From Natronobacterium gregoryi SP2 (GTDB lineage: Archaea; Halobacteriota; Halobacteria; Halobacteriales; Natrialbaceae): 64,000 nucleotides of DNA. Shown here in pieces: positions 53,418 to 61,319 of the stretch. The position numbers were made by a program, and so were the translations under genes. The stretch covers positions 744,001 through 808,000 of the forward strand of contig NC_019792.1 in NCBI RefSeq assembly GCF_000230715.2, written 5' to 3'. The notes below the pieces were generated by a model that worked only from the letters and a program-made list of their open reading frames with translations, had not been told where the DNA came from and made no database searches. How positions within the stretch are numbered: the stretch's first letter is position 1; each line of letters opens with the position of its first letter.

Positions 53418-54418
53418 CGCTCTTCTGTAGGAGATTGTTGATACTGCTCAGCTGTCGCTGTAGAATCGAAGAGAGCAAGGACACCGCGTCAGCGGTGTCC
53501 GTTAGGCATGATCCCGCTAGATGTGTTTGGGTCGGAATCGGTCGCAGCGGACCTGTTAGAGCAGGTTCGCTGGCGTAACGGTGTTACTTGCCCTCGCTGC
53601 CGTTCTGACCTGACGGTCAAGAACGGTAGCTATGGGCACTTTCAGCGCTATCTCTGTAAGAATTGCGACCGCACGTTCAACGACAAGACCGGCACAATCT
53701 TCGCCCATTCGAAAGTCGCACTCAGAAAGTGGCTGTTCTCGATTTACGCGTTTCTCCGGTTTAACACGAGTCTTCGTCAACTTCAGATAGAGATCGACGT
53801 CCAGTACAAAACGATCTATCAGCGCGTCGAGCGCTTCACGAAGGCGCTTGATGCACCTTCGCTTGACCTTGTCGGACCGGTCGAAATCGATGAAGTCTAC
53901 GTTTCTGCAGGGCTGAAAGGCCGCGAGCGCGACCAAGAGTCGCGCTCGCGTGGCCTGTCCACGCGTGGGCGAGGAACGTACGAGCAGGACAAACCGCCGG
54001 TGTTCACGATCGTCGATCGTGGCACCGGCGACCGATACGTGATCCCAGCGAAATCAGCCGACGAATCGACGATTCGGCTCCTTCTCGAAAACCGTCAGAA
54101 GGAGCCACTGACCGTCTACACTGACGGATTTCGTGCCTACGATCCACTGGCCGAGGACGACGCATTCGACCGCGAATACGTCGTCCACGGCGACGGCGAA
54201 TACGCCAACGAAAACGTACACGTCAACACCTGCGAGAGCCACGGATCGCTGCTGCGACCGTGGCTCTCGCCTCATCGAGGCATCTCAAAAGACAAGCTCA
54301 CACAGTATCTCCGAGCGTTCCAACTTCGACGAAAGCTACTGCGGAAACCAGGGAGAGAAGCGCTCAAACACGCTATCAAAGCGACGCTATGAGATCAACA
54401 AAGTGCTACACAAGAGCG
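53418..54418 (+). mobile_element. IS1595-family insertion sequence, complete (1001 bp)
   Basis: The left end CGCTCTTCTGTAGGAGATTG and the reverse complement of the right end CGCTCTTGTGTAGCACTTTG continue both into TTGAT, giving terminal inverted repeats of about 25 bp with a few mismatches. The element is flanked by the 8-bp direct repeat CTATAAAA, the target-duplication length of IS1595 elements. It carries one intact transposase gene. The identical direct repeats suggest a recent insertion. Confidence 0.93.
53508..54392 (+). CDS. IS1595-family transposase
   Basis: A 294-residue transposase of the ISXO2 type. The N-terminal zinc ribbon is VTCPRCRSDLTVKNG and YLCKNCDRTFNDKTGTIFAH, then an HTH (FNTSLRQLQIEIDVQYKTIY) and the DDE-type catalytic core: GPVEIDEVYVSAG, VYTDGFRAYDPL and the C-terminal VNTCESHGSLLRPWLSPHRG (N/E motif) with the KDKLTQYLRAFQ tail. 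It appears intact. Confidence 0.93.
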   Translation: MIPLDVFGSESVAADLLEQVRWRNGVTCPRCRSDLTVKNGSYGHFQRYLCKNCDRTFNDKTGTIFAHSKVALRKWLFSIYAFLRFNTSLRQLQIEIDVQYKTIYQRVERFTKALDAPSLDLVGPVEIDEVYVSAGLKGRERDQESRSRGLSTRGRGTYEQDKPPVFTIVDRGTGDRYVIPAKSADESTIRLLLENRQKEPLTVYTDGFRAYDPLAEDDAFDREYVVHGDGEYANENVHVNTCESHGSLLRPWLSPHRGISKDKLTQYLRAFQLRRKLLRKPGREALKHAIKATL

Positions 54419-54615: not shown

Positions 54616-56529
54616 ATGCCATACACCAATAATCGTCATGGTTCACATTCCAGTAAACGGCATGGTCGCGGAACGTCCCGGCGACAGGCGCTCGCTCTTC
54701 TTGGAGCGGGTGCAGCAGCCGGTCTTGCCGGTTGTGCGGGGGGTGGTAACGGCGACGACGATGACGATCCAGGAGCTGATCTCTCGGACGTCGAACTCTA
54801 CGACGCAGACGGCAACCGTATCGAACCGACCATCATCTACGACTCGGGCGACGGCACGGCCGAAGACATCGCCTCGGAGTGCCAGCGCAACCTAGAGCAG
54901 ATCGGGGTCGATCTCCAGCTAGACGCCCGTCCAGAGGTCCTCGGTGAAGATTTCCACTCGGAACCGCTAGACGACGCCGACCCCGACGAGTTCGAATGGA
55001 GGGCCGGCCGCAACGCGGGCCCGCCAGACCAGACCCGAACGGTCTACGACTGGGACCTACTCCACGGTATCGGGGCGAACGCCTACCCCCGAACGCCGTA
55101 CGACACTCGTGTCTTCTGGAGAGCGGACGATCCGCTCAACGCCTACGGCTACGTCCCCGAGGAAGACCTCGCCGGATTGTACGAGGAGTTCGACGACGTG
55201 ACCGACGAGCAGGAACGGCAAGCTATCTGGGACGAGATTTCGGCGGCGCTAACTCACGAACTGCCGGCCAACTTCATGTACTCCAGTTACGACTTCGAGG
55301 GGTTCCTGCAAGATATCAACACCGAGCCCGAATTCTACGAGTACGGTTACACGCCCGGGACGATCAACCGCTACCGCGGCGAACAGGAGGTCGGCGGTGA
55401 CTTCGTCCGACTGGACGCCACCCCGCTCTCGGAACCCTTCCTTCCGGAACAGGACGACAACAACTCGGCGATGCGCACCGACCTGCTGACCGACGCATCG
55501 TACGCCATCGATGGCGACAACGAAATCGTCCCGCTGCACATCGACATCGAGGACGCGGGCGACTCGCAGGTGTGGGTCTGTACGCTTCGGGACAACCTCG
55601 AGTTCGGGACCGACGCCGACGGCAACGCCTACGGTCAGATGACGGCCGAAGACTGGGTGTTCCAACTCGAGTACGTTCACGGTGTCGCAGACGATGCAGC
55701 CGACCTCTGGGACGAAGAGTTCCCACCGAGTGAAGCCCTCGGCAACTACGAAGTCGTCGAGAACGTCGAACAGACCGGCGAACTCGAGTTCCAGCTCGAG
55801 CTCGTCGAGCCGGACCCGGCGTTCTCGCTGCGCCCGGTCATCTGGGGCGAACAGATACTCCCGCAGGAACTGTTCGAGGAGTACGCGCCGGACGCGGAAG
55901 CGCTTCGCGAGTCGACCGAAGTCACCGAGTTCACCTGGACGGGGAATCTCGGCCCGTACACGTTCGACGACTGGGTCGCGGGTGCCTCGGGCTCGTTTAC
56001 GGCCACCCGCAACGAGGACTACTACATGCGCGAGCACACCGCGGACAGCAACGTCCAAGTCATGGACGACGCGTGGGCCGACGCGCCGTACTTCGAGACC
56101 TACCAGTTCGACGTCGAGGACGAACGCTCCACCCGCCTCGAGCGGTTCCGTGCCGGCGAGGGTGACCGTATGTTGCTCCCGAGCGACAACGTCGCCGAGT
56201 TCGAGCAGGACCACGACGACATTCGCGTCGAGGACCAACAGTCGCCGTACGTCAACTTCCTGTTTTTCAACCAGCGATCTAACGGCAGCCCCATCTGTCG
56301 GGAACGGGACGGCCGCGAAGCGATGGCTCGCGTGATCGACAAGGAGACGATCACGGACGACATCCTCCGAGAGCGGGCACAACCTGTGCACTCGAATCAG
56401 CCGCCCTGGTCCGAGTGGTACGACGAAGACGTCGCCACCGAGTACGGCGTCGACATCACCGAGGAGGACATCGTCCAAGCGCGCGAACTTCTCGAAGAGA
56501 ACGAGACGTTCGTGCTCGAGGAAGCCTAA
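54616..56529 (+). CDS. Circularly permuted substrate-binding lipoprotein (family 5), operon 2
   Basis: A 637-residue protein. GTSRRQALALLGAGAAAGLA and lipobox LAGC (Cys40) give an exported lipoprotein. The order of the domains is changed: residues about 60-255 correspond to the usual C-terminal lobe (EPTIIYDSGDGTAEDIASEC, QLD, YVPEEDLAGLYEEFDDVTDE, THELPANFMY), and residues about 260-637 to the usual N-terminal lobe and middle domain (GDFVRLDATPLSEPFLPEQD, LEFGTDADGNAYGQMTAEDW, GNLGPYTFDDWVAG, DGREAMARVIDKETITDDIL, DIVQARELLEEN at the end). In the paralogue at 44806 the same blocks run in the other order. A single open frame spans the junction. Start ATG at 54616 follows an AT-rich promoter. 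Confidence 0.88.
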   Translation: MPYTNNRHGSHSSKRHGRGTSRRQALALLGAGAAAGLAGCAGGGNGDDDDDPGADLSDVELYDADGNRIEPTIIYDSGDGTAEDIASECQRNLEQIGVDLQLDARPEVLGEDFHSEPLDDADPDEFEWRAGRNAGPPDQTRTVYDWDLLHGIGANAYPRTPYDTRVFWRADDPLNAYGYVPEEDLAGLYEEFDDVTDEQERQAIWDEISAALTHELPANFMYSSYDFEGFLQDINTEPEFYEYGYTPGTINRYRGEQEVGGDFVRLDATPLSEPFLPEQDDNNSAMRTDLLTDASYAIDGDNEIVPLHIDIEDAGDSQVWVCTLRDNLEFGTDADGNAYGQMTAEDWVFQLEYVHGVADDAADLWDEEFPPSEALGNYEVVENVEQTGELEFQLELVEPDPAFSLRPVIWGEQILPQELFEEYAPDAEALRESTEVTEFTWTGNLGPYTFDDWVAGASGSFTATRNEDYYMREHTADSNVQVMDDAWADAPYFETYQFDVEDERSTRLERFRAGEGDRMLLPSDNVAEFEQDHDDIRVEDQQSPYVNFLFFNQRSNGSPICRERDGREAMARVIDKETITDDILRERAQPVHSNQPPWSEWYDEDVATEYGVDITEEDIVQARELLEENETFVLEEA

Positions 56530-56576: not shown

Positions 56577-57641
56577 ATGAAGTGGTATATTCTCCGGCGG
56601 CTGCTGTGGGCCGGCTTTGCCTCGTGGATCATCCTGTCAGTTACGTTCCTGTTGATGGATCTCGTTCCCGATCAGCGGATCATGCAAGCCGAGTTCGCTG
56701 CGGCGCAGGAAGGCGTCGATCCCGAAGCGGCTGCAGCGGCTGCAGAGGAGCGCTACGGAGTGGCTGGGCCGCTCCACGAACGGTACGTAGACTACTTGAC
56801 TGGGTTCGTTCAGGGTGACTGGGGCTGGTCCATCGAGTACAGTCAGCCCGTGGCGGACGTCATCGTCACCGCTGCACCGTACTCTGCGATGTACGCCGTG
56901 CCGGCGGTCATCATCGCGACGATCATCGGAACCGCGATTGGCCTCTACTCGGCCGTCAACCAGTACACGACGAAAGATTACGCGGCGACGTTCGGGGCTT
57001 TCTTCGGCATTAGCCTCCCGAACTTCTGGTTCGCGATCGTCTTACTGGTCATCTTCGGGACGATGCTCGGCTGGGTCGACGTCGGCTGGAATCACTATTA
57101 CCCGATCTCACAGGACGGTGGGTTCACGCTGCTCGAGCGGGCCGACGACAGCCATCCGGCCTTCGTCAGAGAAGAGTTCGAGGGCGAACGCTACGTCGGC
57201 GTCCTTAGTCCGGCGAACCTCCAGCAACTCGTTCTCCCGGCGTTCGTCCTGTTGACGACGTCGACCGCGACAGTGATGCGTTACGCTCGGGCCGAAGCGC
57301 TCGAGTACGTCGACGCCGACTTCGTCAAGACGGCGAAAGCGAAGGGTGCAAGCGACTGGGCGATCGTCTCGAAACACATCTTCCGGCCGGCTTCGGTACC
57401 GCTGATGACGATCTTCGTCGGTCGTATGGTTGGACTGGTGCTGGTTGGCTCGTATCTCATCGAGATCGTCTTCGGGATTCCGGGTATCGGCCTCGCCTCG
57501 TACGAGGCGATCATCAGGCAAGATACCGACCTGGTCGCGATCACGATCCTCATTCCGACGTTCCTCGCGATCGTCGGCAACCTCATCGAGGACATCACGT
57601 ACGCGATTCTCGATCCGCGCATCGACTACGGTGATCGATAA
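56577..57641 (+). CDS. dppB: ABC transporter permease (DppB type), operon 2
   Basis: A 354-residue permease. MKWYILRRLLWAGFASWIIL is the DppB start; six or so helices; DFVKTAKAKGASDWAIVSKH is the coupling loop; VFGIPGIGLASYEAI near the end. It carries an extra loop between helices 3 and 4 (about residues 160-215: DVGWNHYYPISQDGGFTLLE onward), absent from the operon 1 homologue. The stop overlaps the next ATG (TAATG). Confidence 0.92.
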   Translation: MKWYILRRLLWAGFASWIILSVTFLLMDLVPDQRIMQAEFAAAQEGVDPEAAAAAAEERYGVAGPLHERYVDYLTGFVQGDWGWSIEYSQPVADVIVTAAPYSAMYAVPAVIIATIIGTAIGLYSAVNQYTTKDYAATFGAFFGISLPNFWFAIVLLVIFGTMLGWVDVGWNHYYPISQDGGFTLLERADDSHPAFVREEFEGERYVGVLSPANLQQLVLPAFVLLTTSTATVMRYARAEALEYVDADFVKTAKAKGASDWAIVSKHIFRPASVPLMTIFVGRMVGLVLVGSYLIEIVFGIPGIGLASYEAIIRQDTDLVAITILIPTFLAIVGNLIEDITYAILDPRIDYGDR

Positions 57642-58867
57642 TGAGTAGGCACAACGACGAATACAGCGCTTCGGACGACTCCCAGAGGGACACGACTTTC
57701 GAGGACGTCGACTGGTCCGAGATCGATCTCGAGACCGACGAGCGATCGCCAACGCAACTGGCGTGGATCGCCGTCGTGAGTGTGTGGACGCTCGGCGTGG
57801 TGATCGACCTGCTCTCGCGGTACGTGATCGGCGCTTCCCCCTTCCAGTTTCCGTTGGTCGGAACGATCAGTCTGGTCGGCTGGCTGTGGATAGGGACGCT
57901 GCTCGTCCTGTTCTTCTACGGGGTCGTACCGCTGTACCAAAACCCCCGGATGACCAGACACTACTGGCACGAGTTCAGGAAGAACAAGGCGGCCGTCATC
58001 AGTGGTCTGTTTCTGATCGTCGTCTTCCTGATCGGGGTCGTCGGGACGCGGCTCCTGCCGAGTGCGGACCGCACTCCCGGGATGGAGAACCAGCCGCCGG
58101 TCTGGCTGTCGGTCGAGGAGTACGTCGTCGGCCGGCAGTGTCCTGGCGGGACGACGATCGAAGACGGGGTCTCGATGTGTCACGGAAGCTGGGAGTATCC
58201 GCTGGGGACGACGTCATCGGGCGAGGACCTGCTCTTGCTCAGCATCGAGGGAATGGAGATCAGCATGCAGGTCGGACTCATTGCGACGTTGATGAGCATC
58301 ACTATCGCAGCGACCGTCGCACTCACCGCCGCCTACCACGGCGGTCTCGTCGACGAAGTCTGCATGCGATACGTCGACCTGCAGATGACTTTCCCCACGT
58401 TTTTCCTCTATCTGTTGCTCGCCTACACTATCGGCGGTAGCCTGTTCGTCATCATCGTGATCTTCGGCCTGACGGGCTGGGGAGCCTACGCCCGGATCAT
58501 GCGATCCGAGGCGCTCCAGCGTCGAGAAGAGCCGTACATCGTGGCCGCCAAAAGCGCCGGCGCACGAGGGTTCTGGACGATCCGTCGACACCTGCTACCG
58601 AACATCTCGAACAGCGTCATCACGGCCGCGACGCTCTCGATTCCCGCGATCATCCTCGCGGAGGCAGCGATTGCGTTCATCGGTCTCTCGGAGGCGGGTA
58701 TTGCATCCTGGGGTCGCGTGATCGCAGGCGGTCGCGACCAGCTAACGAACGCCTGGTGGATCTCGACGATTCCGGGCTTTTTCCTCTTCTTTACGATCCT
58801 CGCGTTCAATTTCCTCGGTGATGCCATGCGAGACGCGCTCGACCCACGACACGGAGGTGGTGAGTAA
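57641..58867 (+). CDS. dppC: ABC transporter permease (DppC type), operon 2
   Basis: A 408-residue permease, longer than the operon 1 homologue (336). An extra N-terminal part of two helices (AWIAVVSVWTLGVVIDLL, LVGWLWIGTLLVLFFYGVV) precedes the DppC core: KAAVISGLFLIVVFLIGVV, then GTTSSGEDLLLLSIEGMEI and RREEPYIVAAKSAGARGFWT (coupling loop). Stop overlaps the next ATG by one base. Confidence 0.9.
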   Translation: MSRHNDEYSASDDSQRDTTFEDVDWSEIDLETDERSPTQLAWIAVVSVWTLGVVIDLLSRYVIGASPFQFPLVGTISLVGWLWIGTLLVLFFYGVVPLYQNPRMTRHYWHEFRKNKAAVISGLFLIVVFLIGVVGTRLLPSADRTPGMENQPPVWLSVEEYVVGRQCPGGTTIEDGVSMCHGSWEYPLGTTSSGEDLLLLSIEGMEISMQVGLIATLMSITIAATVALTAAYHGGLVDEVCMRYVDLQMTFPTFFLYLLLAYTIGGSLFVIIVIFGLTGWGAYARIMRSEALQRREEPYIVAAKSAGARGFWTIRRHLLPNISNSVITAATLSIPAIILAEAAIAFIGLSEAGIASWGRVIAGGRDQLTNAWWISTIPGFFLFFTILAFNFLGDAMRDALDPRHGGGE

Positions 58868-59970
58868 TGAGTACGAATACCGACGACCACGACGATATCA
58901 CAGGTACCGACTCGATCGACGAGAGTGCGCCACTGCTCGAGGTGTCGAACCTCTGTACGTACTTCGACACGGATCAAGGGGTGGTCAAGGCGGTCGACGG
59001 CGTCTCGCTGACGGTCGAACGCGGCGAAACGGTCGCCATCGTCGGCGAGAGCGGGTCCGGGAAGACGGTTACCAGTGAGTCGATTACACAACTGTTCAAG
59101 CAGCCCCCGGGCTACATCGCCGACGGGTCGGTCGCTATCGACGGCAACGAGGTCACACACCGGTCCGAGGACGAACTCGGCCAGATCCGAGGTCGGACGG
59201 TCGGCCACATCTTCCAGAACCCACAGGGGGCATTGAACCCGGTCTACACCGTTGGCTGGCAGATCCGCGAGGCGATCCAGCTCCACCGAGACGTTACCGA
59301 CGAGGAGGCGACCGAACTCACCGTCGAACTGCTCACGCAGGTCGGAATCCCGGAAGCCAGCTCCCGTCTCGACGACTATCCGCACGAACTCTCCGGCGGG
59401 ATGAAACAACGAGTCATCATCGCAATGGCACTCGCCTGTGATCCGGACCTGCTGATCGCCGACGAGCCGACGACGGCACTTGACGTGACTATCCAGGCCC
59501 AGATCCTCGAGTTGCTGAACCGGCTCCAAGAGAAGCGAGACATGGGTCTGCTGTTCATCACGCACGACCTCGGCGTCGTCGCCAACATCGCCGACCGCGT
59601 CGTCGTCATGTACGCAGGGAAGGTGATGGAACGTGGCCCCGTCGAAGCAGTTTTCGAGTCGCCGTCTCACCCCTACACGAAAGCGTTGCTCGAGTGTCTC
59701 CCCGGAGAGGGCACACTCGGTGGTATCCCCGGCGAACTACCGGACCCGCGATCACCGCCGGGCGGCTGTCGGTTCGCCAGCCGATGCGAGTACACACTCG
59801 AGGAGTGTCACCAAGGCGGGCAGCCGTCGATGGCAGCAGTCGACGGTGACGATCACCAGGTCTCCTGTGTTCACTACCGACCGGAGATGGACTCGTCGGT
59901 CGTCCGCGACGCGCCACCGGAAGAGCAACTCACCGACGACGTCTCCGCCGACGGAGGGAAGCGCCGATGA
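58867..59970 (+). CDS. dppD: ABC transporter ATPase (DppD type), operon 2
   Basis: A 367-residue ATPase of normal length. Walker A GESGSGKT (60-67), Q-loop HIFQNPQGALNPVYTV, signature LSGGMKQRVIIAMAL, Walker B LLIADEPTTALDV, and the oligo_HPY cysteines CRFASRCEYTLEEC. Preceded by GGAGGTGGTG, as in operon 1. Its end overlaps the next ATG by 4 bp. Confidence 0.92.
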   Translation: MSTNTDDHDDITGTDSIDESAPLLEVSNLCTYFDTDQGVVKAVDGVSLTVERGETVAIVGESGSGKTVTSESITQLFKQPPGYIADGSVAIDGNEVTHRSEDELGQIRGRTVGHIFQNPQGALNPVYTVGWQIREAIQLHRDVTDEEATELTVELLTQVGIPEASSRLDDYPHELSGGMKQRVIIAMALACDPDLLIADEPTTALDVTIQAQILELLNRLQEKRDMGLLFITHDLGVVANIADRVVVMYAGKVMERGPVEAVFESPSHPYTKALLECLPGEGTLGGIPGELPDPRSPPGGCRFASRCEYTLEECHQGGQPSMAAVDGDDHQVSCVHYRPEMDSSVVRDAPPEEQLTDDVSADGGKRR

Positions 59971-61319
59971 GCCCCTCGAGCGAGCCGCTGCTCGAGGTCG
60001 AGAACCTCGAGAAACACTACCCGATCACGGACGGCTACCTCAACGAAGAAGTCGCCCGTGCAAAGGCCGTCGACGGCATCAGCTTCGAACTCGAGCGCGG
60101 CGAGACGGTCGGCATCGTCGGGGAATCCGGCTGTGGCAAATCGACTGCCGCGAAAGCGATGATCCGACTCGAGGAGCCGACCGACGGTGAGATTCGTTTC
60201 GACAGTGAGGACGTGATGGCCTACGACGAGGCAAAACTCCGGAAGTTCCGTCGCGAGGTCCAGATGATCTTCCAGGACCCTGACTCGAGTTTCGACCCGC
60301 GGATGAGCGTCGGCGAGTCAGTCGCAGAGCCACTGACCGTCCAGGGGATGGCCGACGAAGATCGACGCCGTGCGATCGTCGCCGATCTTCTCGAGCGGGT
60401 GGGTCTCTCTGCGTCGGATATGGATCGATACCCTCACGAGTTCTCGGGTGGCCAGAAACAGCGGATCGGTCTGGCTCGAGCGCTCTCTGTCAATCCGGAA
60501 CTGATCGTGGCTGACGAGCCAGTGTCGGCGCTCGACGTGTCGGTCCAGTCGGAGATTCTCAAACGCATCGACCAGTTCCAGGAGAGCTTCGGGCTGACGG
60601 TGTTGATCATTAGCCACAACCTAGGTGTCGTGCGTGAGATCTGCGATCGCGTCGCGGTGATGTACCTCGGTGAGTTCGTCGAGGTGGCACCGACCGAGGA
60701 ACTGTTCGCAGACCCGCAACATCCCTACACGAAGGCACTGCTGTCGTCGATCCCACGGCCGGACCCGAGCCAGCGCGGCTTCGGACAGGGGCTCACGGGC
60801 GACGTACCTGACCCGTCGAACCCGCCGTCCGGTTGCCGGTTCCATACGCGCTGTCCCGCGGTGATCCCGCCCGACGATATCGACGTGCCACAAGGAGTCT
60901 GGCGGAGCGTCTTGCAGTTCCGAAAGAACGTCCAGAACGACGGGGTCGACCTCGAGAGCATCGTCCGCGTTCACGCGCTCGAATCCGACCGGTGGGACGA
61001 TCCCACTGCCGTGGCACCCGAGGACGTCGACGAGGCGACCCTCGCGACCTGGATCAGAGACGAGTACGATCTCCCCCAGCGACTGCCTGACGAGACGGCC
61101 GAGACGACCCTCGCGCGAGCACTCGAACGCACCGCGGCGGGGAACCTCGAGGCTGCCGCCAACTCCCTCGAGGAGCAGTTCTCGACGGTCTGTGAGCACG
61201 AGAAACCGGTGCTCGAGTCGGTCGAATCGGATCGTAAGTGCGCCTGTCATCTCGTCGAGGCGACTGGAACGCCCGTCTCGTCGGACGACTCACGCTCACA
61301 CGAGCAACTGACAGACTGA
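59967..61319 (+). CDS. dppF: ABC transporter ATPase (DppF type), operon 2, with C-terminal insertion
   Basis: A 450-residue ATPase. Walker A GESGCGKST, Q-loop MIFQDPDSSFDP, signature FSGGQKQRIGLARAL, Walker [14 protein letters not shown]. The oligo_HPY Cys site CRFHTRCP is separated from VCEHEKP and CACHL by about 110 residues (WRSVLQFRKNVQNDGVDLES onward), as in the operon 1 DppF. This makes the insertion an old, shared feature. Confidence 0.92.
   Translation: MSPSSEPLLEVENLEKHYPITDGYLNEEVARAKAVDGISFELERGETVGIVGESGCGKSTAAKAMIRLEEPTDGEIRFDSEDVMAYDEAKLRKFRREVQMIFQDPDSSFDPRMSVGESVAEPLTVQGMADEDRRRAIVADLLERVGLSASDMDRYPHEFSGGQKQRIGLARALSVNPELIVADEPVSALDVSVQSEILKRIDQFQESFGLTVLIISHNLGVVREICDRVAVMYLGEFVEVAPTEELFADPQHPYTKALLSSIPRPDPSQRGFGQGLTGDVPDPSNPPSGCRFHTRCPAVIPPDDIDVPQGVWRSVLQFRKNVQNDGVDLESIVRVHALESDRWDDPTAVAPEDVDEATLATWIRDEYDLPQRLPDETAETTLARALERTAAGNLEAAANSLEEQFSTVCEHEKPVLESVESDRKCACHLVEATGTPVSSDDSRSHEQLTD

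Follow-up and report, generated by a model that had tools for sequence, protein, structure and literature searches.

The family 5 solute-binding lipoprotein encoded at positions 54616-56529 (+ strand) of the analysed window, a 64,000-nucleotide stretch of the Natronobacterium gregoryi SP2 genome, carries its two sequence blocks in rotated order. We consider it very probable, at roughly 0.9, that this protein, P0001, represents a true circular permutation within family 5 (cluster C, DppA/OppA-like) and would act as a normally folded, Tat-exported lipoprotein receptor of the adjacent importer. The basis is the block order itself, its conservation under purifying selection, the operon, the fact that the order changed several times independently and an allele-like replacement in a related genus. 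What is new is a permuted topological variant of the known family 5 that is stable, arises repeatedly and is common rather than unique.

Rotated block order of P0001

P0001 comprises 637 amino acids in a frame that is open across 54616-56529, as the preliminary description had read it, and runs from a signal with lipobox through the C-terminal third to the N-terminal two thirds. Against a profile of 25 haloarchaeal relatives that have the canonical order (alignment A2), residues 60-246 match canonical positions 427-613 with 129.8 bits and residues 252-629 match positions 57-415 with 319.8 bits, i.e. as two out-of-order blocks. When the mature protein was rotated in 5-residue steps, the best of all rotations was found at residue ~250, the junction of the old ends, where one block covering profile positions 60-612 scores 444.6 bits compared with 319.8 bits for the best single block of the native order. 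These blocks and the gain on rotation bear out the rotated arrangement first proposed for this gene. Alignment with Pfam family PF00496 (SBP_bac_5), suggested at the same time, likewise gave two split, out-of-order stretches, the main one at residues 314-629, with a score of 122.3 bits that lies above the curated cut-off of 32.4. P0001 does not follow the canonical N/C block order of this family and is a permuted homologue of it, not a canonical member. Both blocks are homologous and complementary, the old termini are fused and the new termini are internal. The PDB chain AccA is also matched out of order by P0001, and the paralogue P0002 (44806-46812), which has the canonical order according to Pfam, is only distantly related (26% identity over the N part).

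Profile block coordinates show the order signal, C block, N block in 53 permuted relatives, with complementary block ends at profile positions 424/425 in type A and 391/395 in type B. Because 16 of these 53 rows gained nothing on rotation under best-single-domain scoring, probably owing to HMMER domain splitting or an approximate rotation point, block order was used as the criterion.

Organisation of the gene and its operon

The features of P0001 and of its operon given here lie on the + strand. The N-terminal signal (54616-54735), with twin arginines at residues 22-23 and a lipobox leading to Cys40, aligns to the signal blocks of permuted and canonical proteins. Arg22, Arg23 and Cys40 are invariant in an alignment of 24 permuted proteins, in agreement with a Tat lipoprotein motif and with the earlier view that this signal has been kept at the front. 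It is followed by an Asp/Gly-rich linker behind the lipobox cysteine (54736-54786), where the alignment places the join to the C block; residues 1-49 are modelled with a pLDDT below 50. The C-terminal block, placed first and corresponding to canonical profile positions 427-613, occupies 54787-55353. The junction between the old C terminus and the old N terminus forms a short linker (55354-55389, from alignment and profile), and the N-terminal block (55369-56502, profile 57-415), placed last, holds the main PF00496 match. According to DSSP of the model, the gene ends with the helix DIVQARELLEEN and a final strand (56461-56529).

The operon behind P0001 is intact, as had been stated: permease B (BPD_transp_1, 56577-57641) is followed by permease C (BPD_transp_1, OppC_N, 57641-58867), ATPase D (ABC_tran, oligo_HPY, 58867-59970) and ATPase F (ABC_tran, oligo_HPY, 59967-61319). 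P0001 is thus genetically linked to Dpp/Opp-type permeases and ATPases. The same four genes mostly follow permuted and canonical genes alike, with exceptions among orphan copies, e.g. L072-L074. Directly upstream of the permuted gene lies an IS1595-type transposase gene (DDE_Tnp_IS1595, zinc ribbon; 53508-54392).

Predicted structure and position of the cut

The AlphaFold model of P0001 has a mean pLDDT of 79.5. In the models the last strand (residues 632-636) and the first strand (residues 59-63, 54790-54804) correspond to the hairpin strands 403-405 and 408-410 of a canonical control (hairpin 403-410), and therefore the cut opens the turn of this hairpin. The preliminary description, which had taken the arrangement for a swap of lobes, was right about the rotated order but not about a cut between the lobes, since the cut lies in a predicted β-hairpin of the C-terminal half. 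In sequence-ordered Foldseek comparisons the P0001 model aligns to family 5 structures over 276-430 columns with a TM score by target of at most 0.51, whereas the canonical control reaches 540-625 columns and a TM score of up to 0.76. Such shorter coverage would be expected for a permuted topology, and Foldseek found no solved family 5 structure collinear with the full-length permuted model. The structure model that had been proposed as a check is a confident one with partial matches to SBP5 structures. A normal fold, in which the chain would form an ordinary two-lobed, three-domain Venus-flytrap, is predicted from the confidence scores and these partial sequential matches.

In DppA and OppA the two natural termini are part of domain I, and the hairpin corresponding to the P0001 cut belongs to domain III. 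For this reason the lipid anchor would move to the other lobe and would hold the permuted protein by domain III, not domain I.

Conservation and selection

Among 125 genomes of the same family, 13 further ones contain full-length collinear matches to P0001 at 61-68% or 39-43% identity, and a full-length collinear match implies the same rotated order. The remaining relatives in these genomes match as two separate pieces in canonical order. Counted from the match table, the rotated order occurs in 42 of 391 Halobacteria genomes and in several families; named records that carry it (L036-L041 overall) include Natribaculum breve (L036), a Halorientalis MAG (L037) and Halegenticoccus soli (L041). 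The arrangement is therefore neither chance nor a local assembly error. In ten permuted gene pairs dN/dS is 0.03-0.27, compared with 0.15-0.28 in two canonical pairs, and judged from these ratios the permuted genes are under purifying selection. The initial argument for function, drawn from the operon, gains support from this conservation, the dN/dS values and the shared operons.

Two readings would deny the gene a function or even an existence in its present form. A misassembly or local rearrangement that wrongly joined two gene halves in one genome could be suspected from nothing beyond the oddness of one locus, and we give it practically no credence: the collinear order recurs in the 13 family genomes and among the 42 Halobacteria, including single-contig genomes, and in the named records, and these independent assemblies refute misassembly as a general explanation. 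That P0001 is what remains of a duplicated gene in decay, expressed perhaps but non-functional, is suggested by the adjoining transposase gene and by the type B relatives L088, L097, L098 and L100, which have no in-frame ATG near the signal. We regard decay as very improbable, as it is opposed by the low dN/dS, by full-length conservation with an intact operon and by invariant residues throughout both blocks. In one of the type B genes (L088, 5666-7596) the C block is split over two frames, possibly by a frameshift or a sequencing error.

Probable exchange of the two forms within genus g33

A canonical relative at the same locus is seen at the DNA level for L091 versus L160 (type B) and for L080 versus L141; for the window clade the link to canonical loci is limited to the same type of operon and to related permeases. 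L091 (permuted) and L160 (canonical) come from two species of the genus g33, and their flanks are 90.5% identical upstream and 86.1% downstream. The signal region of L091 aligns first (80.7%). Behind it L091 has the C block, whose match lies at the end of the L160 gene (72.3%); the N block is placed the other way round (73.9%). The two loci have nearly identical signal peptides and permease starts. The SBP gene (L091 5671-7571, flipped; L160 6773-8738) has diverged much more (72-74% identity) than the DNA on either side of it (86-90%), pointing to either an in-place allele exchange or faster evolution.

Of 52 g33 genomes, 19 have the permuted and 15 the canonical form, 18 have neither and 0 have both. 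Since canonical and permuted operons are intermixed in the g33 permease tree while the SBPs form separate clades, the SBP gene has probably been swapped in situ, and either form seems to work with nearly the same permeases. In the g33 loci L091, L143, L156 and L160 the first gene of a divergent neighbouring operon is a further permuted SBP, of group D; L091 therefore has two independent permutants next to each other.

At the fusion points the blocks join almost without a seam. L091 reads ..AWYEGES-NVSGSYDTV.. where L160 has ..AWRYGE-stop, and the canonical mature N terminus of L138 reads ..SVSGSYDTV... Such joints could result from tandem duplication followed by trimming, the plausible route suggested in the preliminary description, or, among other ways, from insertion of a second C segment into the linker that follows the lipobox and loss of the old one. 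Duplicated-lobe intermediates (C-N-C or N-C-N) were absent from the loci examined, and no remnant of the old C block was seen 3' of P0001, where the permease starts ~50 bases downstream. The permutation would have arisen within the first gene of a pre-existing operon.

Independent changes of order

For phylogenetic analysis the permuted proteins were rotated back to canonical order first. In the neighbourhood of the window protein the trees contain four permuted groups: A1, which is the window clade and has canonical Natrialba-type proteins as its sister; A2, from g46, g72, g85 and Halegenticoccus; B, from genus g33, with a cut ~40 residues further upstream; and L080, from one g44 genome, which is cut at the A position and has as its partner a canonical protein from the same genus. 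The canonical sisters (e.g. Natrialba, L042, L101-L103) are closest to the window clade in both the SBP and the permease trees and head the same operon; they differ in their ordinary order, at ~41% (N part) and ~33% (C part) identity. AU tests reject a single clade for B and L080 (p=0.00016) and for A1 and A2 (p=0.0017). In the permease tree, which is free of permuted sequences, A1, A2 and B/L080 lie separately among canonical operons, and three changes are needed. A tree of 87 proteins implies nine changes of order, eight of them forced by well-supported branches, the exact number being uncertain as this is a quick tree with some long branches. These are parsimony counts, which do not give the direction of change. 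On the evidence of these trees the permutation arose repeatedly, with at least eight changes of order in family 5.

Census of permuted family 5 genes

In the window's own genome 5 of 12 PF00496 genes are permuted: P0001 and, outside the window, L187 (=L193; 634-2361), L189 (1489-3270), L190 (1492-3366) and L191 (643-2472), of which L189 and L190 lie close together. Five more haloarchaeal genomes have 15 permuted genes out of 39, giving 20 of 51 in the six genomes, where L213, at a contig end, was taken as canonical although its C terminus looks permuted. The preliminary view of the arrangement as unique does not survive this count, which rules out a single unique gene.

Three cut sites are distinguished on the census profile (canonical seeds only, 502 positions), at about 302/320, at 330-342 and at 424-438/417-424. 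The late cut occurs in L202, L203 and L207; their closest relatives, L184, L209, L210 and L211, have the canonical order. With P0002 as the query, permuted relatives came to light within its own subfamily (group D, 14 loci, L161-L174), of which L163 belongs to the window's genus; the subfamily (loci L161-L180) of this protein, which had served as the canonical comparison, thus has many permuted members.

Group E (L187) extends to bacteria, with full-length collinear relatives on Nitratireductor, Ketogulonicigenium and Roseomonas plasmids. These relatives head permease/ATPase operons and their rotated order is confirmed by profile; the Ketogulonicigenium protein matches AppA (1xoc) out of order with 89 and 29 bits. 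The permuted SBPs L234, L235 and L236 on alphaproteobacterial plasmids are found near M28/M20 peptidase, hydantoinase or tricarboxylate transporter genes. A plasmid search with P0001 returned only canonical-order haloarchaeal relatives and no permuted ones. Type F permuted SBPs in Natronorubrum bangense (L237, 2148-7573) and Haloferax gibbonsii (L238, 4983-7693) are paired with PAP2 phosphatase genes, the N. bangense pair being tandemly repeated. As no permease genes lie near these type F genes, a role as transporter receptor need not apply to all permuted proteins.

Discussion

Canonical family 5 (cluster C) proteins such as DppA, OppA, AppA and NikA (PF00496) are homologous to P0001 over both blocks and share its operon partners, BPD_transp_1 permeases and oligo_HPY ATPases. 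P0001 differs from them in the rotated block order and in its new termini, which lie in a hairpin of the C-terminal half. P0001 would most likely be exported as a lipoprotein by the Tat pathway and pass its ligand on to the permease/ATPase complex of the genes that follow it directly.

Full-text searches of open-licence papers returned no report of a permuted family 5 protein, although one may exist elsewhere. The only precedent found belongs to another cluster: TpMglB-2 (Tp0684) of Treponema pallidum, a circularly permuted cluster B receptor termed 'Type Ic / Cluster Bc', which still binds glucose and retains ligand binding and closure, and whose authors proposed that tethering may have favoured the topology (PMC4990184). 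Like P0001, it is a natural circular permutant among the substrate-binding lipoproteins of ABC transporters. It is, however, a glucose-binding protein of a different fold cluster, and P0001 has only family 5 matches in Pfam/NCBIfam, with family 5 chains among its good PDB matches. Furthermore, TpMglB-2 was described as a single sub-class that occurs in treponemes and Gram-positive bacteria, whereas in family 5 many independent events are indicated. Routes to permutation by duplication and by fission and fusion have been reviewed, and circular permutation is documented for DNA methyltransferases, including intermediates, and for swaposins (PMC3320104), proteins unrelated to P0001. In contrast to the methyltransferases no intermediate was found here, and a transporter operon shows some of the events in situ.

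How often the order changed, and whether it matters, bears on three further readings. Inheritance of one ancient permutation by all permuted members, with repeated reversion to the canonical order, would fit the near-identical cut of most groups (A, D, E and F) at profile positions 330-342. It is nevertheless improbable in view of the three distinct cut sites, the eight forced changes, the AU tests that reject joining B with L080 and A1 with A2, and the nesting of type B and L080 among canonical same-genus sisters at ~70% identity. Family 5 permutation has instead recurred, with three cut sites used. A variant of our preferred reading, differing from it only in whether order matters, takes the permutations to be real and functional but neutral, i.e. 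accidents tolerated where old termini are close and the linker is disordered, with anchoring and transport unaffected. The very short fusion linkers speak for neutrality, and so do the nearly identical permeases shared by the two forms, because of which permuted and canonical proteins seem interchangeable; by count, ~40% permuted genes in six genomes is much for rare accidents, and we give neutrality slightly less than an even chance. More tentatively, permutation could be a regular evolutionary route in family 5, the permuted and canonical forms being exchangeable operon alleles in archaea and some bacteria. Selection on lipid-anchored receptors, or recombination at the linker behind the lipobox, might then bring the C-terminal segment to the front time and again.

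In nature, circular permutations are generally encountered as single, ancient events that separate distant proteins. Some of those in family 5 are recent enough to be viewed at the DNA level, in one operon and between species of one genus. With at least eight changes of state, the family offers a natural, replicated experiment on how permutations originate and which cut sites are viable, and on whether a shift of the anchor between lobes alters a transporter. Automatic annotation of family 5 receptors passes over what is a large structural class.
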